A stretch of 64,000 nt of DNA from Psococerastis gibbosa (Eukaryota; Arthropoda; Insecta; Psocodea; Psocidae): positions 14,791,344 to 14,855,343 of the forward strand of contig OZ020487.1 in assembly GCA_963971405.1 (NCBI GenBank), written 5' to 3'. The number at the start of each line of letters is the position of its first letter. The stretch's first letter is position 1. Both the position numbers and the translations under genes were made by a program. The notes beneath the pieces were generated by a model. The model did no database searches and was not told where the DNA came from. It was given only the letters and a program-made list of their open reading frames with translations. This document shows positions 14,662-53,300 of this stretch, one piece after another.

Positions 14662-15017
14662 TAAGGAAGAGATTTCAAAATATTTGGAAAACAAGAAATG
14701 ACTGTGTATTTTTGATGAAATAAGATAATTTCTGAGAAGCAAAGATAAGAAGGAGAATCGATAGACTCCTATTTAAAAATAGAGAGTGACAGAAACAACG
14801 CCGAAATAGACGCAATTCATCATTGGAGCAGATATAGTCTGTTTTATAAAAGCGCAACAATTAGGCGGGTATTCCACATACGTCAATCGTCAATGAAAAA
14901 TTGAAAAATGACGTAAATTGACGTGGTAGCAGAATTTTTAGTACGTTTTTAATGTCTGCTAAAACGTCATTTTTCAATTTTTCATTGACGATTGACGTAT
15001 GTGGAATAAGACTGCGC

Positions 15018-20909: not shown

Positions 20910-21009
20910 TTACACAGAGATGGAGTCTTCTAGGAAAGCGTTCAACTCCTTATAATGCTGTGGTTTGGAGCCAGTTGCAGGAGACGCTGCAGTAGGTCTG
21001 CCGGAGTAA
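20910..21009 (-). CDS. OGDH: OGDH exon 18 (last, with stop)
   Basis: Encodes [20 protein letters not shown] and on to the stop TAA at 20910-20912, the conserved C-terminus (human YAGRDPAAAPATGNK…). Phase matches the donor at 23438 (AA|T). It is 2.4 kb from exon 17, so it is easily missed. Confidence 0.92.
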
Positions 21010-27000: not shown

Positions 27001-30000
27001 AGGTGCTTCTTCTCAATTTTCTATCGTTTTAAAAAAGGTTAATCGCATGAAAATAGTTATAATAGGTTAATACCCGTGTTGAGCTACGACACGTCTCCAA
27101 GCGCATGGCGTGTAGAGACCCGCACAAGTACACTACCACCGTGCCATCGAAGTAGTTATATATACAGTATATAGCACTATATCCACGTATTCCGTAAAAT
27201 ACAGTATATTGCTCACCTTTGTGGATAACAAACTCAGCGGCATTGGGAGGGGGACTGGAGAAACGGCGACCAATATGAAACAGCGTGTCCTCTTTGATGC
27301 CGGTAGGGCTGACCTTCAGAGGGTCCTTGCCTTCGAAGAAACCGGACCACGGGGAGTCCAACCAGTCCTTATACTTGATGTGTGTTTCCTTTCTTGAATT
27401 TACAAGCGCTTCCTCACAGATTTTGTCGTATTTGTCTTTCACATCCTGTAGCATCATCAAATTATTAATACTAGATTATATCTTTTGTATACAGAGAGAT
27501 TCATTTCTACAGACTCTTTCACATGGAGATTTTAATAGATAGAGGGTTTATGACACGAATATAAGCCGAGCCATCAGGCAACAGAGATCTGAGTTTACTC
27601 TTTGATTCCTCCTGAGTTTTACAAATAGTTCATACCTCTTGTTTTGCTTTGAGAGCAAATCGTCCCCGTTTTTGTGGGGATACTGGAACTTGGGGGTGCC
27701 GTCCTCCTCCATAACAAGAATTCTGAATTCTGTTGTGGACTAGGACGACACCTCCATGGTCCAATTCATAGCGGTGCCTTCAGTATTCATCACAAAAACG
27801 CTTCAAGGGACTGGGCCTTAGTACATCAAGCCGATTCCCTATGATCTTATCGAATAGTTTCTCTTGAAATTGCAGTGGACACATTCAAGTGGTCATCTTA
27901 CCTTGACTTCCTCCTGTGTGACAATACCCTCCTCAATTAACTTCTTGGCATACTTGTCGACACTGGGTGGTGTGGCCTTGATCTTGCGGTACATGAGCGG
28001 CTGCGTAAACATGGGCTCGTCGATCTCGTTGTGCCCGTTACGGCGGTAGCATACGATGTCGATAACCACATCCTTGTGGAACGTGGAGCGCCACTCGGCC
28101 GCCACATTGCACACGTGCATCACACTCTCCGGATCGTCAGAGTTCACGTGGAAGATTGGGGCGTTCACGACACGTGCCACGTCTGTAGTAAACAAATCAA
28201 ATTTCGCAATTTTAAGGCAGTTCCATTGAGGAAGGTGAAGCATTAAATCTGCTGGCTAGCTTGTGATTGATCCTAAGGGTCACCATTGCTCGAACGCGTA
28301 CAGTCTTAGTGGCGACTTAAGGGGTCTCTTCGTAAACCTATCACACCAGGGTATCAGCTCATCCGCAGTTCGGAAAGGAGCAGGAGCGTCTAATTGGCTG
28401 CCACGTTACACACATGCACAATACTCTCCGCAAGGTTAAGTCACGCCTTCAAAAATAACAATATAAGATCTGCGCTATACGCCATCTGTGGAGCACAGTC
28501 CTACTGCCAAGTTGCACACACACATCACACTCTCCAGGTTCACGTGGAGTCCATAAAACGTTCAAACGTAAAGGGCAAATTAGAGTCTAGTATGTGTCCC
28601 GCCTACCCAGTCCCAAAGCATTGGCAATCCATCTGAAATCATTTCCCTAAAAATGAGTTACAAGTAATATGTTTTACCAGTGCAATAAGCGGAAGATCTG
28701 GAGTAGCGAGGGTCGGTAGTGAAGCCAATCTGATTGTTGACGATAATGTGAACGGTCCCGTGCGTGGTGTAGTCGGGCAAGTCCGACAAGTGGAACGTTT
28801 CGTATACGACACCCTGCCCGGCGAACGCGGCGTCTCCGTGAATCAGCATCGACATGACCTAAACCAAAATAAAACTCAATAAAATGGTTAAGTGGTTACC
28901 ACAGTTAACGGCAGTGGAAACACGGTGATTTGTGTTGGAAATATTGACTCGCAGAAACCTGCGAAGCAAAGTAGGACTTCGTTAAGCTAACTGAGAAGTT
29001 TAACCGTAAAAGGGTCACACCCGCAAGATCCTAGCTCATAGTTAAGAAAAAAAGATCTTAAGGAACAAGTAGTAGTTGCAGTAATACTTAGCACGGGGCA
29101 CAATAGGCCACAAGGTTTTAGTGCATACGCAAAAACGGACCCCAAAATAATAATTATAAAATCCAAGATCAGTGCTCTACCACCGCACCATAAATCATAA
29201 TTGGGTCCAGTACAGAAGAGACGGGACATTCGCTTCCCACTAAAAAGATATTTTTTATATTTTAGGTATCACCTGCCACATCCCCCATGACCAATCTTTG
29301 AAAACACGTGGTAGGTGGTACCTGGACTTTGCTCCATCACAAAGACTTTCAGGCTCACCTTTTTGCCCTCTCCATCTCCGCGGTAAAACTGCTCCGCACG
29401 GGTCTTGCCCTGCACAATGGGGTCGACAGCTTCGAGATGGCTCGGGTTGGCGCATACCGCCAGCCTGATGTTCTTATTGGTGACTCGGTTCAGCCGCTCA
29501 ATGTACGTGCCCAGATGGTATTTCACGTCGCCGGACCCCTATACATATCATTCAACAACCATTAATACTGAAGCCCTCGGTTATAAGAGACATGGACAGA
29601 CTACAAGTTTTTTAGTAACCGACGTTCTTTACTAAAGGATAAAAGGAAGTTCTTCCCCGCCACTTAAAATCAATAGTCTCTACGTACATGTATGTTCGCA
29701 AATTAGGGATTTTTTCTCCCGCGTGAGTAAAGACATAGATGAGCGATTTTATCCCCATTTTGGGTAAATTTCTCAAATCCTAAAAAGTGCTTTTAGTAAT
29801 CGGGATTACAAGTTTTTCTTCAGAAATTTCAAATCACTAGTTCCATTTTTTATGGCTTTTTATGGGCTTAGGCCTAAATGTAGTAGCCCAACGACAACGA
29901 CCTCATTGACTTTTTGGAATTGTTTCCGTATTCATTTTGGACGCAGGGACGTCCATGATGTCAACCTGCACCGGCCTCATGTGACAATGGACAACTTACA

Positions 30001-33000
30001 ACAAGCTAACCATTGACAAAATCGAACCCGGGTAAGCATGACAACTAAGTTCGGGTTAGAGTCTAGTTCCTCGTTAAGGGTACTTACATCATCGGCCGCT
30101 TCTAGAGCAGCAAACTGTGTGAAGATCTGTTCTAGGGGTTTGCGACATACATTGGCAAGCACATTCAAACGTCCACGATGTGGCATACCTGTAAACAGCA
30201 AAAAAAAATTATCAGTCCCCCTACGACATAGCTGAAATATTTTATGGAGCTAACAGGGCCTTAATGGAGGGCAGAAGACAAGGAAGGCCACGCCACCGAT
30301 GGGGAGACAAGGTGGAAAGTGATCTGCGAAAGATAGCGGCTTGGCAGAGGGAGATGTCATGAAAGAAGTGGTGTGAGAAGCTAAAGCTCACCCCGATCTG
30401 TAGCGCCGAGGAAGAAGAAATGAAGTTAGAATAACACTATATTACCACATTAATTCTAGGTTTAATTAATTGTGAAACCTTGAACGACATACTGTGTGTA
30501 TGCTTGTGCTGGCTCATTGAACCCTGCAATGACCTCATTGATTGATGTCAACCCACATCGGCTACAAGCTACAATACACTAGCAAAGACAAGCTTACAAT
30601 TGGCACATTGAAACAGACGTGAGCCCACATAATCAAGTTCATGAACTATGTATGATAATGATATGATGCATTATATTAGGCGGGTATTCCACATACGTAC
30701 ATCGTCAATGAAAATTATGAAATTGAAGGGAATTTCAATTTTACTCCATACCATTGTTAAAATTGATCAATGATCAATTGATCATAGAGTAAAATCACAA
30801 GCAAACAAACTAAAATTAAAAAATGGCGTCATGGGATATGTCAAGTACAATTATTTTAATTGAATTTTTAAAAAACCGTTTTCATCCATTAAACAGATTG
30901 GTGAAGGTCGATCTTACTTCGGATCTCCTACTATTATTAGGTTTTATTAAAAATAATAAGTGTACGAAGAAAACAAATACAAACAAAATTTCAAAAAACA
31001 AATGCAAACAAATTACAAAAATTTGGCGCATACGTTTCAATAGAAAATTGTCAATTTTTGAAAAAACATGTGGAATGGCCGCCATCAATGAAAAATTGAA
31101 ATATCCTTCAATTTCATAATTTTCATTGACGATGTACGTATGTGGAATACCCGCCTAAGACTCCTGACTTACCCATAACAATAGACTCGACACCTAGTTC
31201 AGTAGACCTGTCGATGACCTGCTTCATGGCAGGAATCAAAATTTCGCAGCCTTCCAGACCAAAACGTTTCTCACTGGACCACTTTCGAGCCAAGAAAGCC
31301 TCCAGACTGCAATAAAATAAATTATCAATATGTCGCTTCCAATGAACAGGACAAAATCTATTGTGTACTATTACAGCTGTTTATATCGACTTCGATGGCA
31401 TGGTGGTAGCTTGTTAGTAAGGCGCCCATTCCACCGACCAGCTAGGGCTATTTACAAAAACGGTGACGTGGTAGCAGACATTCAAGACTTAGGTGGTATT
31501 CCACAGACCTCGCATTGCAGAATGCAAATGACATTGACGGAAATTAGAATTTTCTTTTTATAGAAATCTATTAAAATGTTTGTACTTAACATATCCCATG
31601 ACGCCATTTTTTAATTTTAGTTTGTTTGTGATTTTACTGTATGATCATTGATCAATTTTAACTATGACATAGAGGAAAATAAACATTTCCGTCAATTCGG
31701 CAATGCGAGGTCGGTGGAAACCCCGCCTAAGTCTTGAATGTCTGCTACCACGTCACTGTTTTTGTAAATAGCCCTAGCCGGTCGGTGGAATGGGCGCCTA
31801 ATTGTGAGAATCTCGGAGGTGATCGGTGATGTGTAACTCAACACGGGTACTAACCTACAGAGTCGACAGAAGAGGTCAATCGGATACATTCATTAAATTG
31901 TTTGTATGCGATTAACCTTCTCATAATAAATAAATAAATAAATAAATAAATACACACACATATATATATATAGGTTTTTAAAGAGCATTTTGGTCAACAT
32001 ATCAACATAAGGGCACTGGATCGTGAAACTAATTAATTAGCTCTCACCACATGTTTAAAAAATAATAATGAAAAGATTAGTCTTAACCTAATAAGACTTA
32101 CCCGGTGGCGCGAGTAAGACGGGCGAGGATCAACTTCTTCTGTTCTACATTGATGTCCATAACTCCTGGTACTTCCAATCGCTGCCTAATCCAGTTGCAC
32201 TGTTCAAGCGAATTAATAAACATGAATTCACAGCCAATGTGTCTGAAAAAGGAACAAAAAGTCCATTTACCAAGACAAAAATTAGGCTCCCCGGACTTCA
32301 TCAATATTTAAAATAAAGCCTTAAAGCCCTTGTTACGGTCATATACCGTAGCATACAGAGGCAGGATTGGAAATCGGAGTGAACCTAGGAACGACCCTGG
32401 GGAGTAGCTAGGGTGGGCCACCAGCCACCCAGGGTCTATATCTGTATGTTTAATATGTTTAGCTTATAAGGTAGTATAGTTTTATAAATGGTGTTTTTGT
32501 GTATTCTGTTTTACTGTTTGTACCTTGTCTTTAATTTGTGTTTATTATATCGTGAGTTCTCGAATAGGAAACACGGGTATTTTCCTTGCTAGCGGTAGTC
32601 TCCCCATCAAGCCAGGCTGCCACAGCCTCTCCAACAGCCCAGTATAACGATGACTAGTTGTGGAGCCCTTATGACTAGAAGACTACCGTGGACTATTGTA
32701 ACTATTATAAGACTATGCTGTTTTGAGTCAAACAAATCACGGTAAGTTGACTGAGGCATACTGTGCAAGTTTTATGCGATCAACAGCCATCTTCCTCTAA
32801 ATGAAATGCACAACGCTACCGTCTATACAGTAAAGCAGGAACAAGGTGCTACGTACGTACCTGCAATAAGCGTTTTCCAAGCGTTTCAAAATTTCACGGA
32901 GCGTCAACGACTTCTCCTTGCCTCCGCCAATGAACGTCGTCGACGGAAGCTTGAACACACGGTCCATGTCTTCCTCCTCTGTAAATACAAACAGACGTGT

Positions 33001-36000
33001 CACCAGACAGTCTACCGCCCACCAACACGACCCAACCCACAAGCAAAAAGTTACAGACAAAGCGTGCGCAAGCTCATACCATTAGTACACGAAATAATTA
33101 CTCAGAGATCCGCAAACGGCCCCAATGAGTGGTTCAACTGAAACTTTTACTACCTTCACTAGGCATAGGTTATAATATTCATCGGCGATCATTTCAAAAT
33201 AATTTCTTACTTAATTTTACTTAGTAAAGGTCCCATTGCATTTTTAAATGGACAACTTTTGTGTAGGAATCCTCGCTCTGATTGGTGGGGCGCAATTGCT
33301 ACTGCTGCCATACTAATATAATGGGAATAAGTGCACTTCATCACATTTTATTTTATTTCACTAAGACACAGACTTATAAATCTTTTTTTTAAATTATAAC
33401 AAGTTAGATTCTGCAAGGAAAGCACGACAATAGCTACCAACTAAATTATCATATTATTTGAGTGTTGATTAAATATAATTACAAAGACTAGTGTTGTTTG
33501 GTAAGCTTGGGTCTACTATACGATAGATGAGAAATTAGCTTCCAACAAAAATATTGTTTGAATTTATATTTGATAATCTACACCCAAATGATAGGCTATT
33601 GTCGCATTTTCCTTGCAGAATCTAATTTCTTATAATTCAAAGAAACAAGGAATTAAAAAGCTTGCATTACTTTGTGAAATAAAATAAAAAGTGATGAAGT
33701 GCACATCTTCCCATAAGATAAATATGGCAGCCACTAGCATTTGCTCCCCATCAATCAGAGCGAAGCCGCCATGGTGGATTCCTACAAGAACGTTGTCCAT
33801 TTAGCCAGTAAGTAACATATTGCTTAACATTAAACAATCTCAGTCATATTATTTTTTTCCGATTTAGCAGGTTATTTGAAACAAATTTCAATACACTACC
33901 TACTGTAGCAGTAATGTAGTGTACTAGACATGCAGAGCTGACTCGATCGAATTGTAACTTCAGCAAAGAGTTCTTTTATTACTGTATTTGACAGGGTCAT
34001 TGAATTAGTGTCCCCAAAATGCTAAGACCCGGTACACACGGACGATTCAAAAGCCGTTGACTCGCTGAGAAATTTGTCATTTAGTAAATGGGTAGTTGCA
34101 AAACCAGAGTCAACTTCAGAAGATTTCTGATACTGGCGTGAAGCAGACCGCATGCAGGTGCATAGTATTCCCCTAGACACGTCTAGAACACGCTTAAACG
34201 TCAAAAACCATCAGAAGTGCGTTCAGAAATCGACCTTTTTTGTTTGCACTAACCAATCACCAACCCATTTATCCCCATGACAAATCTCTCAGTGAGTCAC
34301 CAGTGGGAAACGTCTATATGTACTGATCTTAACGCCCAGATTAATGGTTTTTTATTTCTATTACGTACTTCCCTGTTAATTTGTCTAGCTAGATAACAAA
34401 ACTGTCAGTTCCCTTAACAACCATAGCTCACAATGAAATAGACTGCGTTTCGTTGGTAATTAAACCAGCTATCATTAGATTATGACGACAAAAAAAAATC
34501 AATAACTGATTTCGCTGTATATGCCATTTCAAGTCTCACTGATTTTACAGAGAACTGTTTGTTTTGTCAATAACCATGCAATTTTCGACACTCCTCCACC
34601 AGTACATTTCACTATACTATACGAAAGACAATAGACAGAGAGACAGTACCGTAACTTGAAAATATCTACTGTTGTTATAATCGAAAGAAGGCACAATTTT
34701 ATGAAGTAGGAGAATAGACGTAATTTGAGGAGTAATTAAGGCCGTTGCAAGGAATTTTGAAGGGTGAGGAGCGGTTCAGTCCCGGGGTCCCCCGGGGAAA
34801 TTTCTTGAAATATTGGGGCTTTACGCTTTTGATAGCAGCAAGGTTTTATTTTACCAACGAAGATTCATATGACTCCAGACATGGGGGCCTCCCCGGGGAA
34901 ATGTTTGAATAAATAGGCCTGAAATATTGGGGTTACACATTTTTATCATTAGATTTTACCGACAAATGCTCAATAACTTCAAATAGGAGGGTTTACACAT
35001 TTTTACACTCCTAGACTTCTTGAAAAGACTACAACCAGAAAGTCCGGGTGTCACGCCCTGCGAGAATTAAAAAATAAAGGTATGAGTACAAAATTGTGGG
35101 GGTTTACTCATAATTTTGGTAAAAAGATATTTTTCTCAAGAGGGGGGTTAAAACCGGCTGATCCCCCTGATCAAGGCCGTGCCCAGGTTTTGATTTCGGG
35201 GGGAGGGGGGGGGGGTCCGGACCCCATGGACTACCCCCCTGGGCACGGCCATGCCCCTCATCCTGGGTAAGGCCTTGGTCAAATGCATAAAAAATTAAAA
35301 AATTACAAATAAGGCCGGTAAGGACAAAATAACAATTTAATATAAAAAAATGAAATAATTGCAGAGTTAGATTAGCAACGTTTGCATTATACTTGTATCG
35401 TATATTATTTCATGTGTAACCAGCCTTAAGCGTTTTCACTAGCCCTGTTAAGTATCGATTGAAATCTCAAAATAAATGTTGAATAGTTAGTCTAAGAACG
35501 AATGGGAACCATAAACAAAATATTAAGGAAAATTTTGTCTCAAACTTAAAGAGGATCTCTTGTGGGCTGAGTATGCTTAAAAAAATTATATTCATATCAT
35601 ATTTATATTTTCATGATAAAAAAAAATGCTTAACCATTACGCCTACATGTTAATATATGCTGATCCTGTGACTGCTACCCCTGGCTGCAGGCGTAGGTAC
35701 CAAGTTAATTTATTCCCAGGGTTAAAATGTAAACAAAACCATTTTAAAATAGCACTTAGCATCTTTCGTTTACATTTGTGACCCTGGGAACAAATCAATT
35801 TAGTAGAGCTCGTGTTATGCCTGCAGGGCAGCTACTTAATTCACAATTGAACTATTTTTATACTCCCACGGGTCCGCTGCCAATCCTGGCAATTATTACA
35901 GATTAAAAATAGCGTAAAATCAAAGTATAAATACCGCCACACCGAAGAAATAGCCTCCCAAAACCATACATGTTGATAATACCTACTCTCCATCATTGAA

Positions 36001-39000
36001 GCTACTTTCCGCTGAAGAATGTTACTGTAAGTTGCACTGGGTTTTCCTAAATCAACAGAAACAAAAGAGACTACTACAAAAGGAAAACAGAAAATAAGCG
36101 TAACACATGTACTGTAAAGCACTGACCGGTGTAAAGCCAGCGTTAATCAGCTTGGGTTATTGTATGCGTTATAACAACAAAAGCGTTCATATTTGTTATG
36201 AACTTTTCAGCAATCTTTGTTATTACAAGAAAAAACTACCTAAATTCACACAATTACTAAAATGGATAACTTGCTCATGTTGCTCCTATGAATATGATAC
36301 CTAAATTAAATGAATTAGGTTGGTTGCATTGCAACAGTAGAGTAAAGATAAATTACGACAAAAAATATACATATTATCAATTTACCATTCTAATTAGGCT
36401 TTTAAACATTGGAATGACCAAAGGAATCTACGTACTGTAGCCCTATGTGGAGGCAAGCTTTTAGGACCATATACCTACAACAAACCTTCACTGTATTTCT
36501 TTGGCTATCACAGGGTGTTTAAAAACGTCTAATGGTGTAAAACGAAGTAGAATAATAAATTATAACGCAATAGGGAAGGAAGTTTTGAAGAGATTTCAAG
36601 GTCATGCGGGTCACACCAAAATCTGGTCCTTTTTCATTTTTATTAATTTACAAAAAAAAAATCTGTGATGAGTTTTTAATTTTGGCAGTGATTATTTTCG
36701 TAACAATTATGTCATATTTTTTGTCCAACTTCGATCAGTTTTACGAAGAAACCTAACAATTCAATGTAGTTTTTTAAATAGTTATCTATAACTTGGGCGT
36801 ATTCTTCTTAAAAACTTTCGTTGTGCATTAATTTTATTAAACATTAAATTGTATTACATTTTGAAGTGACCTTGACACTTCCCCTTGTGAGAAGTCCTGT
36901 AAAACCTACAAGTGCCGTTAACTTAATAGTTGTCAACATCTTGCCGATGCAGGTTCTGATAAATTAATAATGCGGTCATGTGCTCAATGGGAGCAAATCC
37001 CGATAGATGGCAGCATACAATTCACCGCTCACAGAGGGATATCCTACTGAATTGAATTGGTAAATACTTGAGTTCTATTTAGGAGAATTCCCACCCAAGG
37101 ATATTTTTGAATTTTAAGGTCCTCTTGCCGGGTGATTCGAAGAAGATTGTAGAAATTGTGACATGGGAGGCGGATCTTGAAATCTTTGGCGGGATGTTGT
37201 CCCATCTAGTCCATATAGAACTCTTGTATGCATCTAACTGACCCTGTCATAGGTGCTATTGAAACAGACCCTGTGCCTTGAGGGCATGGATGAAGAAGCT
37301 CGAAGGGGGAGCAGACTAAGCGACAGACCCAAAAGAGATGCAGATAGTAGAAAGAGGGATGAACTTAAAGAAGACGTGCAACTGAGATGAAAGTGCAACT
37401 AAATTAGATATAGTGCTGGTAGGCTACTTGATGGTTTAGATGAAATTATTGTTAATGCATTATTCCGGTCGCCAAGTGTTTTAAACACCCTGCCAAACTG
37501 CTCGCCATGCCAACTAGACATTTCAAACTGTGCCATGCGGATATAATTCAAGGTCGAACATCTTAAATCCAGATAAGGGCATTTACCTCTGAGAATGACA
37601 GCGGTGACGATGTAAATGTCTATATTTGTGGAACTTCGGCCTACATTAAATATGTCACGCCCAGTCCCTTGGCCTTCTGGCCTACTTTATCTACTGTAAA
37701 TGATATAAATACTCGGCACTATAGTTTGAAGAGACATGATTAAAAAGGAAATGATAGGGGGTGGATGAACAATTGGTGGAGACGATTGTGAGGAGACTGC
37801 AATGGTTCGGACACGTAGAGCGAATAGATAGCAGCGGGTGCGCGAGGAAATGGCTAGTGGAAGAAACACGAAGAAATGGAAGACCAAGGAAGAAGACAGG
37901 AAGATACACATGAGCCAGATTGAGAAGATGTGACTGGTACCTGAAGAAGTGTTGAATAATCAGAAGTGGATCATGGTCAGGACATGTAGAGTAGTGGTAC
38001 AGACTCCGACTTTCAGCCAAAAGGTTGTCGGTTCGATTCCAACACTTGCTACATTTTCTGATCATTTCTGGAGTGTAGGAGAGGGCTTTATAGCCCTAAC
38101 TCCGCTAGGTTGGCTTAGTAATAGAACAAAAAGTTAATATTTATTTATAAGTGAGAGACAGGAGGGAGAGGGCGGAGGCTCACATATCACACCCGGGCAT
38201 ATGGAACTAATTATTGACCATGATGACCACTATAGTTTGAAACAAAGCCAACAAGACATTACTATTAACCGTCTGGTCAAGCTTGGCTAAACAGGTTATT
38301 TTTATTAACGAGATTGGTTGTATTAGACTGCCAACTAATCCGGATTATAATAAGGGTTTCACTCTGTCCACTTCTTTCACCTATCAGTTGCCCCAGTCAT
38401 TCCTCCTAAGACCAGGTCTCACCAATGCTTGCAAAGTATCGATAAGGAATACTGAACGGCACCGCTATGCATTGTTAGATGGCTGTGCCGGCCTGTATTC
38501 CGTACAAATATTGTTCAAGGGATGATGGGACCGGGTCTATGGGGTACCCACAGAACTACACCCCTTCGCCTATACAACTGATTGCAGTCGTTTATAAATA
38601 TACAACTTCAACCCATAACCAGTGTTTCCCTTATAATAAGTTGCATTCCCTTGTTGCCCATGCAATTATTATTCTTCCCCTTCTTTTTCCTCTTCCCTTT
38701 TAATGCCGCGAACCCATTTCTTAAATTCGACCCATTATTGAATTATAAAGAGTTAATACGTTTGTTACTGTTTATTATAAAGGCTTCCTCAATCTATCTA
38801 TCAAATCGTAAGATAATGCTCTGTAACATGATAAATTAAAAAATTAATTAAGACAGCTTCCTTTCTTATTGAACACTTCATCGTCACCATTGTCACAATC
38901 AGAGATAATAATTGTACAGACAGTACTTCAACTACAATTTCTAAAGAAAAGAGAGTACCTATCTCTATACTAAAGGATCCATACGACAACTTAACATAAG

Positions 39001-42000
39001 CTAGTCAAATGACGGAGATAATGGAATTGTTACAAGGCTGAACCTGACATACCGAATGAATAGTGATTGTACAGCAACTCTGGAGGATGTTTGTCGTCCA
39101 GATCAGCGCTGGAGATGCCCAACGGGTCCAGGTCGGCAATATGGTGGCCCCGAATCTGCGAGTCCAAAATACAACCACTAACCACTAGCCACAACATTCT
39201 ACTGTACAACAGAGTCAAAATTAGTCACTTTCTATTAGAAATACATTAATATAATCATAAAAGAAAAAAATTGGAAACTAAAGGAAATAAAAAATTAATA
39301 ATAGCCTTAAGAAATTATTGAAGAATAGAAACAGTACAGAAAACAAATGTAAAAAAACAGTACTCGTCGAAAAAAATTAAAAATACCTACAGGAAAGTAA
39401 AAAAAAAAATACTCTAGACATGGGGACGACTACACAAAAAGTTATTGACTCAATACCCCTTTCCTGGTTAACCTTCACTTAAAAGCAAAAACATTGATTG
39501 TTAACATATCAAAATGATGACAAGGAGAAGAAGGTAGTCACGAATCTGCTACTGAAGACAAAATATTTGTTAGTATTATACACAAATAAATGAATGATAA
39601 AAATCTACTCTGGATGGATAAAGCACAGGATATACTTGTAGTACTAAGTCTACGTTACAAAAACGTAGCACACACCTTTAAATATAAATCATGGACATTC
39701 GTTGAGTAGACAGTACTAGTACATATTACGATAATAGGGTAATAGTGAAACATTGGTATAAATGCGACAAGAGTACATATAATTCAATAAAATGTCCATA
39801 GAAAAAAACAATGCCTTCAGTCATCTGCCGAAACACAAAGTGATACCTCATAATAGATATAACGGTTTTTATTCATTTTATGTCACCAGTTAACTATTTT
39901 TTAAGTATTACTTCAAAATGTTTTGTAAACAAGAAATTATCGTAATGTTTGGACGAAATTAATTAATTGCTCGTTCCACAGCCACAAAGATACAAAAGGG
40001 AACAGATGAAAAAAAATCGTAAAAAATACGAGTTTTCTGTGAAAGCTGTCTATTTCCCCTACAGATTTACAACTGTTCTACAAAATGGGTTTAAGGCTCT
40101 TTGTCCCATTTTTCTAAGGTAATAATATTTCAGTTCAGAAAATATAAACTTCCTGCGGTAACTTGTATTTTGTATAAGTTTTTTATCTGTCCACTTTGTT
40201 ATCTTTGTATCTGTGGAATGAGCAATAAATTAGTTTCGTCATAAAACCAGCAAAATTTCTTGTTTACAAAACATTTTGAACACTCAGCCTTAAGTAATGA
40301 ATAAATAACCATTTATTTGCAAACAGACCGAAAGTCCAATAAAATGCAAATCCCAAATCAAAACTGTGCTTTCCTTAGAATAAAATCTGAACAATTTAAG
40401 GGCTTAGGAGACAATCGAACAAACACCCTCGCAGCCCGAATTTGAAAAATATCCCATTTCACAGGAAATAAACAAATGAAACGACATAAAATATAAGAAA
40501 TAATCCTCATAATTTTGATAAATAGCATGTATTACTAACCCGAATTAGCCACACATTCTCAATGTCCGTTAAGATATACAAATGCACATCTTTTACTGGT
40601 GTCTCTAAATCGGTGTCAGTAACGGCCACATAATACACATGAAACTGTAGAGGAACATTTCTTATCATTTATGGCACAACAATCGATAATTGCTGCGAAA
40701 GTTTATTTTTTACACTCAGGTTGTCTTCTAACTAAATAAAAGTAATAGGATCTTTTAATATTTTGGCAGGTAACGCAGACATTCAAATGAAGAACACTGA
40801 CTGGAACCCAATTTTAGCATAAGCCATAGGGCATGCAGGAATAAAATTATTCTGGCCCATTTTTGGTAACCAAAGCCCCATAATGATCTATCTTTGTTAT
40901 TATTTAATGTTTTTTTTATGGGTGTAATTATATACTGGCTCATTGAACCTAGTCCTGCCAACGACCACATGGATTTTTGGACATTATTGGTGTTGTTTCC
41001 ACAAGAATCTCGTCCTCGATGTCAACCTACACCGGCTACAAGCGACAATGGACATGCTGAGATAAGCTTACCATTGACACAATGTAAAGCCGTAAGCGTG
41101 ACTGAGCCAAGTTCGGGTACGAGTCATGGTTTATCTAACAATATTGTGCTGTATTTCGGCTGCAATGTCACGGCAAATACGTGATAGATAACTGAACATC
41201 AGCTGGAGTAGCCTAATCTATAATTTAAGCGTTGTCATGTGAAAATGCACGTCGTTTATACCGGGCACTGGGTAACGCGGTAAATTTAGGATTACTGTCA
41301 ACGGGCAGCAAAAATTCGAACTACGGAAAGCCATCCACCAGGGACTAGGTTTCTTTTCTAATTTTGGGGAACTGTTTTCCACCCGTTGGAAAGAAAGAGA
41401 GATAGAAAGAGACCTGCGGAAGATGACGAAGGAAGACAAAGAACCGGGGGGACAAAGCTCACCCCGGGCTGCAGTCCTGATAAAAATGGGTTAAGGTTTT
41501 GCGTATGAGCCTTGTATATGTTTTAGCCTTTTAAGTTTCAAAGAGTTGTGGCCTATCGTGCCCACTGCTGTGTAAATTTACTCCCTCCTTAGGCGCCCAT
41601 TCCATTGACCGGCTAGGGCTATTTCCAAAAACAGTGACGTGGTAGCAGACATTGAAGACTTAGGTTGCGTTTCCACCGATCTCGCATTGCAGAATGCAAA
41701 TGACATTGACGGAAATTAGACGTTTTCTTTTTATAGAAATCTATTAAAATGTTTGTACTTAACATATCCCATGACGCCATTTTTTAATTTTAGTTTGTTT
41801 GTTTGTGATTTTACTGTATGATCATTGACCAATTTTAACTATGGCATAGAAGAAAATAAACATTTCCGTCAATTCTGCAATGCGAGGTCGGTGGAAACGC
41901 CACCTAAGTCTTGAATGTCTGCTACCACGTCACCGTTTTTGGAAATAGCCCTAGCCGGTCAATGGAATGGGCACCTTATTAGGAATTCGATCCTTTTAAG

Positions 42001-44322
42001 GTTTGCTCAGTTATTTGAACTAAGTCCTATTTTGCATCGGCATGGCCCGGGTGTGCCTTACCATAGCGGAGTCATTCAACAGCCGTCTCACTCAATAGCC
42101 AACTTATCAAACTAGCAAGTGTTTTGCTTTCTAACAGGTTTAGACCACCTCTAGCATGTACACAGTTATTGGCTTGGACTTTGAGAAATGGGGTGCATAG
42201 CATTTAAATGCTGGACATTAATTTGTTCAACAAAAAGTGTCGTTTCCACAAGGGACTTAATATCAACTTCCATGTTACAACATGGAATCATTGTCAAGAA
42301 TGGTTGCTGTTTTGCTGCTATAGAGCGAAATTTAACCCTGTTTTGACTTCTGCTACATGGCAACGAACCATTCTCAATTATGATTGGCTGTCTTATTTAG
42401 TAATTAACCTAGTAGGCGGATCACTGGATATACTTTGAAACCACCCGTAGAAGACATCAAATATAAAGAAATTTTTAATACCAAGTTGTGTAGGTAATTA
42501 ATTTTAATTGATGTTGCTTTTAATTTTTTAAGTGCTATAAAAAAGTAACCTAAATGAGTAATTTATCACTGTTATTAGCGTTCAAATCAGTGTTCTACAA
42601 ATGTATTAGAGACAAGTGGTGAGCACACAATCTTACCTCTTGAAGTTAGCAACTTCTCCACGATTTGCACTAGTACTACTTATGTTATTTGGCAAATAAG
42701 ATCTTCTGAACCTCCCACATATAAAATCAATCACTCAGAATTTATATGGGTACAGATCCTGGCTTTATGCATCAGTTATATTAGTCACACTCGTACTATC
42801 TGTCTTAGTAACACAAAAATTGATTAACACTTACCCAAATGGCAATTAACTTCCACTAATGGCGTCCCTCATCATTTCACTCATATAACAACAAAAATTA
42901 CAGAAATACGTGTTTACGGTGAAACAAGACCACTCCAGCATAGTTCCAAACGCGTTACATTAGTGCTGAAAATTGCGAATCTACAAGCATCTACCAGGCA
43001 AAAAAATAAAAAATAGCATAGCAGTCAAATTAAAAACAAAAACAAAAATGATCCCACATTTTGGATATGAAAAAAAAAACGTTGTCTAGATTTGCTAAGA
43101 GATTTACTAAATGTGCAACATTCACATTCCTTGAAAGGGAAATGACAAATTACAAAATGTGGGAGTAGACACTTCACTTTTGGCCAAATTACTGTTTAAG
43201 CTTAGGTAATGAAAGCAGTATACTATGTTCACGGTGATAGGTAGTATTTAGAAAATGTGTCCGCATTTATGCCTCATTCGTTCCCCCCACGCCACCCCCA
43301 ACTTGTGTTTTTCTTATGTAACAGATAGTCACATACAGTAAGTATTTTTTTTTTTTTGTGAGAAAAATGAATTAAAAATGACAGGATTGTATTTTAAAGA
43401 GAGATTCTATCAATTTTACTTTTAGCTGGTTCTGCAGCCTGATAATGGCGATTATAATACCGGGGTTAATATAATACCATGTCACGTGATGGTATTAATT
43501 CAACTGTTTAAAATAAATGAACAGCAAATTCAGAATTTTTAAATTGGCAATACTGAAGAACTGAGCTGACGCGACGATGCCGTAGCCAATATTAATAGCC
43601 AAAATAATCACATTCCGCCCTAGAAATAAACAAGTTTTATTTTTGATTTAATATATCAAGGATTATAAATAGTTTGTCGAAATCTAAGGAAGAAAAAATG
43701 AAGAAAATATAGCCGAAGATCATTTAAATAGACACAATTAGAATTTTCCGCGCTTAGCACTCTTGCGACCGACGATTACCAACATCAAATATTTAAAAAA
43801 TCTGAAATTTGCAGTTCATTTATTTGAGTTAAATTAATGCCATCACGTGACATGGTATTATATTAACCCCGGTATTAAAATCGCCATGATCAGGCTGCTG
43901 CTACATAATGTCATATATGTACATACAGTCGCCACGAAAAAAGTGACACATTTGTCAACAGATAAGAAAATTAAAATATGGCACTGAAAAACGTGTGCGT
44001 GAGTTTCCAATTTTTGCAAAGCCTTAATCGATGCACAAATTATCACAGTATTCGAACTGCATCATTATCTCGATAAAATGATAATAATTTAAGAATCATT
44101 ATGGCCACTACACAATGTCGCATTATTGCCTGGGGAGATAATGATCAATGATTCTGACAACCAATTCTTTCTCAACTTGTTTCGCAGAGAAAGGCGGTTC
44201 TCATAATACAACAGGATGAAATATGTGATGCATTAAAATATAAATATGATGGGCTGAGGCAGAGTTTACAAAATATTAATTATAAACCACTTGGAGTCCA
44301 AGTCATTTTGTCCAAGTCATAT

Positions 44323-44377
<55 letters not shown>

Positions 44378-47300
44378 TCTCAAAATTCAATTAATACAAG
44401 ATAGGTAAAATGTCCTTTATCTCGTTTTTAGTAATAATAACGTCAGGTGAGAAAATGTCAATTTATTGTGAAAGCTTGCATTTTTTAAATCAATTTTTCT
44501 TGCGTCCATTTTCATTTCTTTGCAGCTGTGTGACGAGGAATTAACCAATTAAGTCAAAATGACTGTTCTCAAGCTATTTACAAAATATTTTGAAATCCCT
44601 GCCTTAAGTTAACAACTGAAGCATAGCCTACCGTTTGGGAGAAAATTCTCAGCTACATCTATTTTACGCCACTTGAGTCATGGCACGTAAAATCAACTAG
44701 CCCAGATCCTATGCAAAAGTTGTAAGCCGCCACAAATTGTTGCAAAAATAGTTGTCTAATAATTAATAACTCTTGGCATAAATAAGTTCGGGCTGTAAAG
44801 TTTTCTCTTGGACTGAAGTAATACCTATATTCCCATTGGCATTGTTTGCCACTTTAAGTCACAGAAGCAACCTCATAATTATAAGGCCAATTTTAAATAA
44901 GCCTTCATTAAATTGTACCAAGTAGTAACCTAAGAAAAATGGACCGGGCCGAAAATACATTGAAAAGTCTAAAAATCGATGGGACCAGACCCCCTTGGTC
45001 TTCGGTCTGTGGACCGTACACGACCGTCTATTACTAATAGCAAGTATGGAATCCAAAAGAAAATTCTTTCATTTCAATTGAGAGTGACAACTGACCTGAT
45101 ACAGCTATTATGTAATTCATGTTGTAGCTGAAATGTATGGTTTTGAAATTTGGGAAACTAACATTGATACTAAAGGAAGTACAAAGACATTATCAGGAAC
45201 GACTATCGACTTCAATGGCAAGGTGGTAGCGTGCTTGTACACGTACTTGTGTAGCCATGCGATCGGAGACGTGTCGTAACTCAACACGGGTACTAACTTA
45301 CAGAGGCGACTGAAGAGGTCAATCGGATACATTCATTAAATTGCTTGTATGCGATTAACATTTTAAGAAAAAAAAAAAAAAAAAACCAATGCATGCCTTA
45401 AGGATGACAGGTTACCTCAACACAACACCACCAGATAGGTTCAATTTTTGCAACAATCAGCAACTCAAAACAACATCAACATGGACTTTGCTAATTATAT
45501 CTAAATATCATAAGCTATGCTAAACTAGCTTAATAGGGAAGGGGATGATTGTTACCGAAACGATGACCATGAAATATGGAATTCAAAACAAACTCTTCGC
45601 GAGTGGTAAAGTTCTCGTGCCAGTAAGCAACAGCAATGCCCAGGGGATCCAAATTAGAAACAGCGTGCCCTCGGACCTTGGGAAAATTAAAAACCTGTTG
45701 TTAGTATTCGAAAATATTAGTAGTAATGGCGATAATTCACCACATGTTCTGTGATAGTTGAGGTGTAGTAGGTTTGAGAGACGTCTTATTTACCCAGATG
45801 CACTTTTAATTTACGCTTTTTTATTTAGCTTCAAGAATGTGTCTGGGTAGTAGTAGTAGTATGGTTTGACACAGTCCCAGGCCACGGTGTGGGCCCATAG
45901 GACTCCAGTGGACCTCCTGATTATAGTGGATTCCGAACCACTTGGGAAACACAGTCAAGTCACACGATTAGTTCGGAGGTGACCAGGACAAGTCCTACCA
46001 TGTTTCCCTACCGGCACTGTGCACACGACCAATTTATCTGCAGCTTTGAACCTGCTCTGGTCCGCTAGATTCAACTTGGTATGGCGGCCGGCATGTGTCT
46101 GGGTAAGAGAGTTAAATGTGATGTCTGTTCTGTTTACATGTATTTAGTAGCATTTAATTTCTCTGCGGCAAAGACCATTATTGCAGACCAGGGGTACTTG
46201 GGACCTGACGTCGTTCGCTTATTTTTGTTAAGAAGTAGTTTGGAAGTAGGTGACACTCACTATGGAAGTAGGAATCTACTGATTATTCCCCACTCGATCA
46301 ATTAATACAAGAAACCTAATTCCGCAGCGAGTACCAACCACCCGCAGTCTTCTTAATGAATAATAAGCAAATGACATAGTATCGTTAATATTTAGGTACA
46401 CAACAGTGATAAAAGCATAACAAGGTGGAGTTAGTAGATGTTATGGAAGTAAAGGCGGAGATTTCCAAACATGTTTTTTTTTTTTTTTTTTTGTAAACAA
46501 GGGAGGCCTCGGTAATTTTGACTGAATTATTGTATATACTGTATATAATTTCTATTACTGTATAAAAAACAAAAAATGGATTTAACTGATTTTATAGAAT
46601 ATTCGCAAATTAGTCGGGTAAATAGTATTATTATTTAGAAAGTTTTTTTTTTAAACCTGACTTTTTCCTAAAACCATTTTCAAATCTTTGAGGCTGCGGA
46701 ACGAGGAATTGATTAATCTTCTGGAGTTACAACTTATCGATTGGTTTGCAGCGAATGTTTCAATCTCCTTCTCGACTCTTGTCAATTTTGTGTGGTCCTT
46801 TTTATTACAAGGTACTGCAATTAATTAATTTTGTCAAAAAGCCGGGGCATCCCATAATATTGACTTTAACGAAAACGCCAATATTAGGAACTGATGGTGA
46901 CAGCATTTTTAAGTTTAAAAAGGAAGCAGAATTGACATTTGAACAGCTACGATAACTTTTCGAGTTCAGCTAAGCAATGACGCTTTCCTATATTTAAGAA
47001 AAAACCTTGGTCTGTTCTCTATACCTACTGGTTAATAAATTTAGACTTTGCATTAGACTTGAAATATGGCCAAAAGTAAAGTGTCCGGGAGGAAAAATAG
47101 CGGGGTTTACCGAGCATATGATCGCGGACTACAATCTTGGAGGGGGAGTCGCCTCGTTTTTCGTATGCGCTGTGCAAGTCTGCGTATACAATGCCCAGCG
47201 GGTCCAAATCTGAGACAAGATGGCCGCGAGCCTTTCCAGAACAAAATCATCCGTATATTACAATCCAGATTTTTATATTATTTGATGTACTGTTCTTGAG

Positions 47301-50300
47301 GACGTCACCACTAAGATGGGTAGTTTGATTTTTGGGGAGCTTATTTACATTTTCCAGCTCCCCTTACTTAGGCATGGCGCTACTCGCTAGTAGGGGTATG
47401 CCTCGTAGTGGAAATTATTGACGATATTCTTATGATGACAATATATGGTTTGGTATCGTATAAACCTACTGCAAATACCTATAATCGCAAAACATGATGT
47501 TTCCTAAAGTTTAAGGTGTTGCAACCGGTTTAAAATACTAAATTTCGAGTTCAACCATTTAAAGAAATCACCATTGGAATAGATCAAGATGCAGTGCCGT
47601 ATACATAGAATATTGGGGGCCGCAAGAGCTCTAGCTATCAACTTCTTGAAGCGTGCAGAGGCCCGAGACGACGTTGAATTCTACGAACCACTCTCTGTTG
47701 ACCCCATCATTTATTAAATCTGGCAAATTATGCATCACAACAACTCACATTATTAATTTCATCTTAAATTCCCCCCCCCCCTCCCCCTTATATACGCCAC
47801 TGTCTAGATCTACTGATCTATGACCAATTGCAATAATCCAATAATAATAACTTCATTGAAAACATCATGTCTTACGTTTGAGTTGACAACTACAGATCCA
47901 TGACCTCAAGGCTGCATGCTATTGGATTAGTCTACCACAGAGAAAATATTACCCAATTAAACTAATGATTACCCAATGATTTCATGATTGAACGGATCAA
48001 ATGCAATACCGATCTCCCAACAATAATACTACCAGTCATTTTCCGGTCACCAAGAAAATCCAGACGCGCGACAACGCGCCTACCCCACCCAAAGCGAATA
48101 TGTTTACAAGAGTTCAAACTAGATACAACCAGAATTAAAACGGTTCTCAACTAGACAGTGTTCGCCGTAATGCTTTCAAATAAGAAAATGCTTGCGGCAT
48201 TGTGGGTTATTGAAGTCTCTGCCTACATGTAAAGCCGGCATTTTGCATTTCAATACGAAAGAGGTGCAATTTAAGAGGATATGGAGCCTAGATATTGGTC
48301 ACTCCCTTGATCACGAAAAAATCAGACGGTTTATATTTTGTATTTAATAAACTACGTAAGATATAAATATTTGGCCTATGGTAGTTGTAGAGGACTACTT
48401 CATACACAATATCATAGGATAGTTTTACTTTATGGTGATATTTCTCCACTAACTTTAAAATGCGTAAAATTTTAGTTCTCCGTTAAATTCATTAAATAAC
48501 ACCAAAAAATAAAAATATGTGTGATATTGCATATCGTGTATAAAGTAGTCATAGATCAACTTACACAGACTAAATCTTTAAAATAATAACCATAATCCAT
48601 GGGTGATCATCATCTTAAATGACTGCATTACTCTAGATTTCTTGATATATCACTAAAATATCAGTACTGTAATAATTGAAGACCGTTTTCAACAAACTCT
48701 ACTGTACACTCGACCAACACCCCCAACGAAGCCCTTTGAAAACCCAACGTATACAGCATACGACCGTATATAACAGTCAGCGTTAGTGCTGCTAAGTCAT
48801 AGTTTGCCTAAAATTACAGTAGGAGTACTGTACATAGACTACTACATGTATTACGGGATTCGCTATGTGATTCAGCATGCTAAATGTTAAAAAATTTAAA
48901 TTTGGAAATGTAAACATCGTGAAGATACCTTGTGCTAAAATTAAATATCGACAAATTATTTTTCATAAAATATAAGAAAACATTAAATAATTAAAAACTA
49001 CCCGCTTACACAAAATAACCGCTACCGTAATAAACAAATTAAAAAATACAATAAATAGAAAATGGCCGCGGCCGCTAGGCTGTCAACCCAAATTTACGAT
49101 TTCAGAAATTTACAATGGAGTTACATTTACATTTCCGTGCCATGTTCCATTGTTTTCATTTACGATCGGGAATCGGATTCTCGATTTAACAAATTTAACA
49201 CGGTTTAGCATGCTAAATACCTGATAGTGAATTCCCTTAATATACATCATATATTTACATGTCACAAGCTAGGAGATCATTAAACTCTCCTGATCAAGAA
49301 ATAGTGCATGAGAACTTAAGTTTTGTCGTAGCACATGATCTTTCTGGAGGAGAAAGCAACCACGGTAATAGTTTCATGAAGGATTTCATTAGATTTATTG
49401 AATCTCTCCTTCCAAAGCAATAAAAAAAATTGAAAAGTGAAAAATATGAGCACCAAATGTGCATTACTTTAAACGTAAAATACAGTATAAAAATATAAAA
49501 AAATAGACAAAGGGCTTCGTATTTTTTCGAGAAAAAAAGGAAAGAATAAGAAGATATATTTCCCAATGACCGAGAGTATAGAAGCCAGACTTCTTACTTT
49601 CAATGTTGATCATGTAGTTTCGGACCACTGCCGGATCCGGCTGGCCCTGTCGGTTGTAAAATAGAGAGCCATTCCCGAAATTTATTTGCATCGGATCCAG
49701 GTCGCTTACTAGGTGCCCCCGACTCTTTAGGGAAACACACAACCCGGTTACTCTCATAATAATAGTAGAAGTACTTAGTAGTGGTAGTAGTATAGAATGT
49801 CGATCAAATTTTTTTTTAATAGCACCTGGAGGCCTAGGATAATTTGGCATTTGAGCTCAAGCTACAGGCTTCCCTCAATTGTATATGGTGCCTCTACATC
49901 TGACATTCTGAAGGTGCTAAGAAGAAGCATACAGAAGAAATTGGCCACCCCTGGATCAAAATCTATTTTATTTTATTTAATACGTAAGTTACAATGATTT
50001 GGTCCCAAGACTATTACACAGAACTACGAACTAAGAACTCGTATAATGAATTATTTCAGTTTTGGTGCAGTGATTATTCCATTATGATTATTCTCATAGA
50101 GGACCGACATTTACCGAATTATCAAATTCATGGGAAAATTATAACAATAAAAATTAAAAAGACCTTATCTTATAATAAATAAAATATAAATAAATAACAG
50201 ATTTAAATGGATTATCTAGGGGTGGGCAAAATCAACGGTCGGCTTCCTAAACCAACAAACTTGGTTGCATTTTACCCATTTAGTCACACACAACAATCGA

Positions 50301-53300
50301 GAGTGACCAGGTCGATATTCATAGTCGATAGAATTGGATACAACCAAGTTCGCGAGTATGTCAACTTCTTAGGTGCCCATTCCACATACGTACAACGTCA
50401 ATGAAAATTATGAAATTGAAGGTGGTAGCAGAATTTTTAGTATGTCTTTAATGTCTGCTACCACCTTCAATTTCATAATTTTCATTGACGTTGTACGTAT
50501 GTGGAATGGGCACCATATTAATATTAACAAATTCAAACCTATTCACATAATATATTGTATAACCTACGGTTAAAAGTGATGGAGGGATTGCAATTAGATT
50601 GAGTTTTATAGACACCAAGAATTTTAATTTCAAAATCTTATAGTGATTTTTTCTCGAGTTTACATGTAGCAAAATCTTGAGTCCGAATGCAATCCCTCCT
50701 TCCCCAATGAGCATTCTAATAGAATGGGTTAAATTTCTCAACTTGACAAGTTCAATTATAAAATTGTAAGTGGCAATGAAAAATTTACATCACCCGTATT
50801 AAGTCGTTCTGAAGAGAAAGTTTAAACCAATGTAAACCAATCTTACACATATAAATTATAGCAAAACAATCAAATCATCGACATTTATAAACTTTGGCGA
50901 TAAATTTAAATCAAGATACTTTGCCGGCTTATTTATATAACACACAAATTCCAAATATCTCAAAAAATATCTCAAAATAACGAGCGAAATTCAGCATAAA
51001 TTTAGAGTACGCCTAGTTCTACATAAAATGTCTTGTCACAATATCGACCTTTATATTATATTAGTGTATAGGTATGGTACCGACAGCATGAGCATCAAAA
51101 TAAATTGTTTGTTACATTATTTAGCCAAAGCCAACGATTAAAAAAATTGTTTTGCCATTAATATTCGTCATGCCATTAGAAATGATGTCAGATTAAAAAT
51201 GACCATTTCACCCTAGGAGGAAGTATAAAATTGCATAAAAATGTAAAAATGCATAAAACTATTATATTTCCTCCATTATTTCACCCGAACTATGGAATGG
51301 ATTACGTAACCTTAGTTACAATTTACAGCATTATTTATTACTTACGATAAATCGTTCCAATAAATTTGTTAACACAGGATGATCGGTTTTTTGGCGAAAT
51401 TAATTAATTTATCGATCCACGGTTATATAAATCTAGGAATAGTCTTTTGGGGACTCATAAAAAATACAAATTTTGCCGTAGACTTAGGGGCCTACTGCTA
51501 TTCTATTGGATTATGATAATTCACACAATTATCGTTTTGTAGTAGCCTAATAGGCTAATACTATATATCAGATGAGAAAATTCAAATTTACTGTGAAAGC
51601 ATGTCTTTTTTATAAAGTCTTCAAAATAATAATCTAATAGCTTTGTGGCTGTGGATTGAGATATTAATTAATTTTGTCACTATTACTCTGGTCAGCCTTT
51701 GTTTTCAAAAACTTGGAAAGTTATCCCTTAATCCCAATGGCATTTTCGAGACTACCTACCCAACTTCTCCTCGTAATCACAATATAAATAAAATCCAATG
51801 ATGTTTTTCTCAGTAGATTACAAATCACATAACTTATTTTAAATCACTATTAAGCAATTCAATTTGCAATGCTGAGAAAAATATCCAAACTAAAAGAAAA
51901 CAATTTATTGACTTCAGTTATAGAACACAAATAATTTGGTAATTTACTGCAAGTCATCAGCTCTGAACACAAATTACATTGCAAGTTATTTTGTAAACAA
52001 TGAACCTAAATAATTTATTTCTCGTTCCACCCCATTGGTTCACGAGTATGTGTATCAATGCCTTAACAAGGCAGTTATGTGACTGAAATAACCAGTATTT
52101 ACTCTCCGTATAGTGTACAATGTACACCACTGCCAAGATATATGTACATATATCTGGCTGAAATGCCAAGAACGGGCGTTGGCTAATATTAGTCATGTAA
52201 AGTATGTTAGTTCTTAATGTACAAGAAAACCTTGATTTTCCATTAGTAATTCCCAGTTAATATTATATAACGTTCTCACAATTGGATGAAATAGCAATTT
52301 ATTTTCTCATCACAATTCCTCTACTTCCACTGAGTAAATAAATAAGTTATTCATTTTTGGCTAAAAGAAAAGTAATGGGGGTACAAATACAGTTGCAATG
52401 TAACGTTCAGACGCAAAATGACCTACAGCACCATGGAAAACCTGGAAACAACTGCAATTACTTACAATACAACTGAAAAGTATTTACCTGGTAACTGCGA
52501 ATGATGGCTTGTACAGCCAAATGGTCGTCGATTACTTTTTCGGAAATTGGGCCAGCGCCGACTGCAGGAAGACCCCCCGTGAGGGGGATGAGGCTGGACA
52601 ACGTAGCCTCGTTGGCGCGGGGCGACGCCAGAGAGGGGGGCGCCACGTAGGCTGCACCGGGGGCAGCGCCTGCCGAGCTCGAACGGAAGAACGCGTCCCA
52701 TGACTAAAACATACAGCAGACAATGAAAATGTATCCGATGAAAGGGAAATCACAAGAAGGCTCGTTAGTATCATTATTTGGAAATTTTCGAACTGGCACG
52801 AGCCACATAAGAACCTTTTAGCATCTTAATTTACATAAAATTAATTTATTCAGGACTGCGCGCATCTTATTGGTCCGTCCCATGAATAAATGTCTCCATT
52901 ACTACTGCAACGTGAACAAGACAGCAAAATTCAAAAGGCACCGCAATTTTATTGGGAAAGTGACGTTTCGCCATTATTACGAAATTAATAGCCTTAACTA
53001 AATGGGAAGTCCTGCATACCTATTACAAATAAAAACCCCAGGAGAGTAAAAAAAAGCCTCACTAGCGCATTTTTAGAATTCACATGTTTAATATAATCCA
53101 ACTTCTTTGAATTTATACTTTATTTTATTTATATTAGGAACCCTGACTTGTACTTAGGCTTCTTATAAATTTCTTATCTGTACAAGCAATATAAAACGGT
53201 AAAGTATACTTATAAAATACTTATCGTGGTGCCAATATGATATTTAAATAATTTCATGCAAACATGGTTAAGTACCGCAGTTTATCTATAGCGGATCAGT

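Follow-up and report, generated by a model that had tools for sequence, protein, structure and literature searches.

In the insect Psococerastis gibbosa (Psocodea, Psocidae), a complete, open gene for 2-oxoglutarate dehydrogenase E1 (OGDH) carries four homologous versions of its third coding exon, which we denoted 3a, 3b, 3c and 3d. The gene lies on the minus strand (54474..20910) of a 64,000-nucleotide stretch of contig OZ020487.1 (assembly GCA_963971405.1, positions 14,791,344 to 14,855,343), hereafter the window, whose own coordinates are used below. The four exons stand between exons 2 and 4, and each is preceded by AG, followed by GT and runs from phase 0 to phase 1. We consider it likely that they arose by tandem duplication, diverged long ago and make up a single cassette of mutually exclusive exons in OGDH (E1o), from which each transcript would take one variant, with 3d as the ancestral, Ca2+-type form. 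The anatomy of the gene supports four mutually exclusive versions well, and their exclusivity and use as isoforms are predicted. OGDH is one of the steps at which the tricarboxylic acid (TCA) cycle is controlled, and in vertebrates its response to Ca2+ is adjusted by a pair of alternative exons (PMC7969005).

Variants 3a (127 bp; 49598..49724), 3b (121 bp; 47111..47231), 3c (121 bp; 45556..45676) and 3d (103 bp; 39053..39155), all on the minus strand, were found with the positions, lengths, AG/GT sites and phases that an earlier reading, made from the letters alone (the sequence-only reading), had given them. That reading had also described each as an xRGHxxxxLDP head followed by a different tail of 20-30 residues; the heads are indeed homologous, and the residues after LDP number 23-31. 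All four exon lengths equal 1 modulo 3, their frames are open and their borders are in register. Single inclusion of 3a, 3b, 3c or 3d leads to a full protein of 1021, 1019, 1019 or 1013 amino acids, respectively, while a transcript that skips all four meets a stop at codon 167. None of the 11 multiple inclusions (two, three or four variants) reads through, with stops at codons 190-284; when all four variants are joined, the frame is restored arithmetically, yet a stop follows at codon 256. The proposal that joining two versions breaks the frame was therefore confirmed. These variants are tandem homologous exons of equal phase that share the same two flanking exons, and only single inclusion keeps the frame, as in a mutually exclusive cluster. 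Each transcript would take exactly one variant, and wrongly spliced products, carrying premature stops, would be lost, probably via nonsense-mediated decay. A profile built from the four variants and run with filters off, which recovers them by construction (E 1.2e-17 or better), revealed no fifth copy in the six frames of the window, where the next match had E 1.2. Single-exon tblastn, which is independent of the profile, linked 3a with 3b (about 2e-7, the best), 3b with 3c (1.5e-5) and 3d with 3b (about 2e-5).

The gene was assigned to OGDH by several matches, which bear out the identity proposed in the sequence-only reading. By tblastn, collinear stretches of E. coli SucA that extend, with interruptions (e.g., 502-588), from about residue 94 to 932 match the gene. 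Two of six OxoGdeHyase_C (PF16870) matches, both above the cut-off, fall in this gene (C12:14814762-14814938 and C12:14815193-14815363), and the exon 2-4 segment matches human OGDH (7WGR) with E 5e-22. Its 18 coding exons were placed by frame and splice borders, and once joined they read without interruption from the ATG to the stop codon with any single exon-3 version.

The exon-3 segment aligns with the human OGDH peptide that bears DADLD, the segment to which exons 4a and 4b contribute (PMC7969005), and the likening of the four versions to the two vertebrate OGDH segments at this site was apt. In vertebrates, Ca2+ binding and activation require the DADLD motif of exon 4b, and the exon 4a isoform is Ca2+-insensitive (PMC7969005). 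At the DADLD positions, 3d has SADLD, 3b the partial motif YADLH, 3c VAYWH, and 3a FGNGS, without a Ca2+-type motif; SADLD is thus restricted to 3d, and 3a-3c have neither DADLD nor SADLD. Variants 3a-3c also have VS in common where 3d has IA. Residues shared with the first 20 of the human peptide number 16 in 3d, 13 in 3b, 11 in 3c and 8 in 3a. Since 3d matches the human peptide best and bears SADLD at the place of the DADLD in vertebrate exon 4b, it is likely the ancestral form. SADLD occurs in several Insecta (PMC7969005). That 3d alone keeps the motif, a point absent from the sequence-only reading, suggests what the choice of exon may concern: it would set the E1 segment that holds the Ca2+ site in vertebrates, and cells could trade a possibly Ca2+-responsive 3d enzyme for 3a, 3b or 3c forms with other settings.

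It should be noted that SADLD may not be a working Ca2+ site, in which case the variants would serve another role, such as E1-E2/E3 assembly, targeting or the binding of another ligand. The effect on Ca2+ affinity of the change from D to S at the first motif position is described as unknown, while a change from D to A abolishes Ca2+ sensitivity (PMC7969005); both points also weigh against our main reading. That the tails lacking the motif are of three kinds and not one also speaks for such a role. However, the cassette occupies the very segment at which vertebrates use alternative exons to determine Ca2+ sensitivity, and we regard a role apart from Ca2+ as a serious possibility that falls somewhat short of an even chance.

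The splice sites of the variants were scored with matrices built from 15 constitutive sites each, for which the lowest constitutive acceptor scored 0.9 and the lowest donor 4.6. Acceptors of 3a to 3d scored -1.2, 2.8, 5.2 and -0.1, and their donors 7.0, 2.7, 0.1 and 2.5, so that five of the eight variant sites lie below the lowest constitutive site of their kind. The constitutive partners on both sides have strong sites, namely the donor of exon 2 (52488..52703, minus strand; CAG/GTAAAT, 9.6) and the acceptor of exon 4 (32861..32978, minus strand; 9.2). The variant sites tend to be weak and stand between strong constitutive ones, a pattern expected of regulated exons.

Three known routes to exclusive splicing were compared with the locus. 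The introns between the variants measure 2366, 1434 and 6400 bp, and the AG-free stretches before 3a to 3d are 24, 56, 16 and 20 nt long. Introns of 1434-6400 bp and AG-free stretches of 16-56 nt do not match the vertebrate mechanism, which relies on a restricted intron, distant branch points and an extended AG-free zone; human OGDH, by comparison, owes its exon choice to branch points that lie 25-41 nt from the donor of exon 4a (PMC7969005). All variant intron borders are GT-AG, and the introns begin, as read by eye, with GTAAGA, GTAAAC, GTAACA and GTATGT. No variant donor fits the U12 donor consensus, and an incompatibility of U2 and U12 sites was rejected. Docking/selector pairing was not found, as the weakest-of-four duplex energy was not better than that of shuffles in three comparisons (9, 8 and 12 of 20 shuffles as good), in a scan that took in 600 nt next to exons 2 and 4 and 350 nt next to every variant and that has little power without related genomes. 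The simplest model of exclusion would be a regulated choice combined with frame-based removal of errors. In a related observation made by eye, a CAG lies 18 nt before the 3c acceptor (45694-45677, minus strand), very near a TACTAAC; if used, it would add six in-frame codons.

Exclusion may also involve no active choice at all: variants would be picked at random, products with none or several of them destroyed, and the frame alone would sort the rest. The frame logic is sufficient for this, and neither docking/selector complementarity above shuffles nor a steric or distant-branch-point arrangement was seen. However, such sorting would presumably be costly for an essential enzyme, the weak variant sites amid strong constitutive ones suggest regulation, and the pairing test, limited to the intervals given above, had little power. 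We hold sorting by frame alone to be possible but less likely than not.

The 14-codon heads of the four variants were compared pairwise; they had been chosen as conserved-looking, so that constraint was measured where it had already been seen. Heads of 3a and 3b have 11 of 14 residues in common and only one of 14 codons, with proportions of synonymous (pS) and nonsynonymous (pN) differences of 0.96 and 0.25. In all six pairs pS exceeds pN, and the copies are therefore old and maintained as protein. Values of pS are at least 0.72 in four pairs (three of them without a finite synonymous distance, dS), 0.68 in 3b-3c and 0.49 in 3a-3d, which places four of the six pairs at or near synonymous saturation. 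Random-mutation controls (100000 per pair) had as few residue changes in 0 cases for 3a-3b, 3 for 3a-3c, 5332 for 3a-3d, 106 for 3b-3c, 548 for 3b-3d and 315 for 3c-3d, and head constraint is thus outside chance in five of the six pairs. By codon usage of the whole exon, none of 5000 open intronic windows scored as high as 3b and 12 as high as 3d; for the tails alone, the counts were 118 (3a), 17 (3b), 1112 (3c) and 129 (3d) of 5000.

The introns gave a similar picture of age. Among the best 30 of 36 direct and the best 30 of 46 inverted intron-intron matches, there was nothing but A/T runs, local inverted repeats and a single exact match of 17 bp, in a comparison that would miss strongly diverged likeness. 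With no intron similarity beyond such low-complexity runs and short exact matches, and with four of the six head pairs at or near saturation, the copies are old, and their divergence argues for an old expansion of the cassette. The proposal of the sequence-only reading that the expansion took place in this lineage was thus not supported. A contrast within the gene is provided by intron 9 (28183..28677, minus strand), where two short stretches (28535-28506 and 28430-28383) resemble a portion of exon 10, the shorter at 83% (30 bp, E 0.004) and the longer at 77% (48 bp, E 0.001). Their frames run into stops, and these short, weak stretches look like decayed copies of that portion of exon 10, as would be expected of copies not under selection, in contrast to the intact exon-3 copies.

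Several observations weigh against a cassette of four working exons, and some of them would fit a locus in which only 3d, or 3d and one other variant, is used and the remaining copies are dying exons that stay open by chance. Weak sites can equally mean disuse, as for the donor of 3c and the acceptor of 3a, and the splice scores do not single the variants out: among 1179 GTs of the intron region, 23, 198, 424 and 212 score at least as well as the donors of 3a, 3b, 3c and 3d, and among 956 AGs, 258, 86, 45 and 201 score at least as well as their acceptors. No branch point resembling yUnCURAy was found within 100 nt of 3a or 3b; for 3d the closest lies at -66, separated from the exon by AGs, and a branch-point-like site at the usual distance, TACTAAC, is present upstream of 3c alone. 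The codon usage of 3a and 3c does not stand out from that of open intronic windows, of which 369 and 712 of 5000, respectively, scored as high; the constraint on the 3a-3d heads is not significant, and beyond codon 14 the tails have diverged too far for a test of selection. However, the residues in the heads of 3a and 3c are retained relative to the controls in every other comparison that involves either variant (3a-3b 0, 3a-3c 3, 3b-3c 106 and 3c-3d 315 of 100000), only 3a-3d (5332) being weak. As noted above, the four variants all have lengths of 1 modulo 3, keep their frames open and have their borders in the same register; TACTAAC lies about 25 nt upstream of 3c, and the exon-10-like stretches of intron 9 look quite different from the exon-3 copies. 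We therefore consider dying exons an unlikely account of the locus.

The locus lies within a perfect tandem repeat of 82,405 bp. The segment C12:14806160-14888531 recurs 82,405 bp further on, head to tail (C12:14888565-14970936), and the two copies agree at all 82,372 bases, without a mismatch or an N; the repeat starts at window position 14817, runs beyond the window end and includes the entire OGDH gene, the four exon-3 versions among its exons. When pieces of OGDH served as queries, two gene copies were found, not three. Since there are no differences between the copies, the repeat is either an assembly duplication, as is probable, or a very recent tandem duplication, neither of which could have produced the four exons. 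That the four exons themselves are an assembly fault is extremely improbable: the assembly may be faulty in this repeat, but what the repeat duplicates is the entire gene, the four exons included, and it cannot yield four such divergent exons within one copy.

Dscam, Mhc and 14-3-3zeta are insect genes with clusters of mutually exclusive exons. The OGDH exons resemble these clusters in being tandem homologous exons between constant exons; they differ in that the target is a TCA-cycle enzyme and that no docking/selector pairing was found in our weak test. Closer still are exons 4a and 4b of vertebrate OGDH, which affect the same segment of the same gene and are exclusive versions, one of DADLD type and another without it (PMC7969005), whereas the gene described here has four copies instead of two and SADLD instead of DADLD. 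The four-exon OGDH cassette is a larger version of this known vertebrate arrangement. OGDH without exon duplication (Lottia and Amphimedon, PMC7969005; bacterial SucA) has one version only, against four here. The RGHxxxxLDP head of SucA is shared by the OGDH variants of P. gibbosa. A related E1 gene on contig C20 of the same genome is a separate gene, 53% and 40% identical in two pieces; judging by eye from its C-terminus, we take it to be DHTKD1-like.

As a tentative idea, which we think rather less probable than not, the cassette could act as a splice selector with four states in an enzyme that controls flux through the TCA cycle, with one Ca2+-responsive form and three other settings chosen by tissue or stage, and with a non-vertebrate mode of exclusion over kilobase introns. 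If true, a site that is a simple on/off switch in vertebrates would have been expanded here. Four versions would show a further diversification of the same protein segment, and four enzymes alike except for a single segment of 34-42 residues would allow a direct test of how a regulatory site is rewired. The locus also offers a test of exclusive splicing where the introns are too long for the vertebrate mechanism. No report of four-version insect OGDH exons was found in the literature searched, which covers the field in part, and gene databases may already annotate such isoforms; the available parts of PMC9177970 and PMC10323237 contain nothing on versions of insect exon 3.

Upstream of the variants, OGDH coding exon 1 (54265..54474, minus strand) contains the start codon and, by position, the presequence, and it has an open frame and a GT donor. 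Exons 1 and 2 lie upstream of the part matched by SucA and were placed by their open frame and by a likeness to the human N-terminus, which we assume. Exons 5-18 with their introns, through the stop codon, occupy 20910..32242 (minus strand). A Pfam search of the 77-residue exon 2-4 segment gave no matches, and neither did Rfam at gathering thresholds in window positions 20000-56000.

Local inverted repeats occur in the introns near the variants (50514-50372, 41972-41595, 43898-43434, 33763-33273 and 40280-39912), with arms of some 90-110 bp and, in one case, as a 143-bp palindrome; they are perhaps small transposons. Tandem repeats were limited to one A-run and one 12-bp pair.

A scan of viral contigs with a 422-amino-acid piece of OGDH found no insect relatives, and in a scan of contigs from prokaryote genomes with 367 amino acids, the best 80 of 577 relatives all bore bacterial titles and none was from an insect. 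The invariance of the head motif in 74 of these best 80 relatives (66 distinct, six dropped) was not used, because the search pattern had demanded RGH and [LI][DE]P, and the accompanying count of ADLD was set aside as confounded by the head.

Elsewhere in the genome, a TTAGG telomere end was seen. TGA encodes Trp in mitochondrial DNA, and the mitochondrial COI was read with code 5; this and the telomere end agree with an insect-like arthropod. A tRNA scan of the COX1 locus gave none. Besides the match on contig C68, there were 42 COX1 matches on C1-C3, C12-C15, C19 and C20, nearly all of them partial and some with internal TAA or TAG. The longest of the 42 consists of two pieces at C14:11085363-11086704, and these matches outside C68 are probably nuclear mitochondrial insertions.

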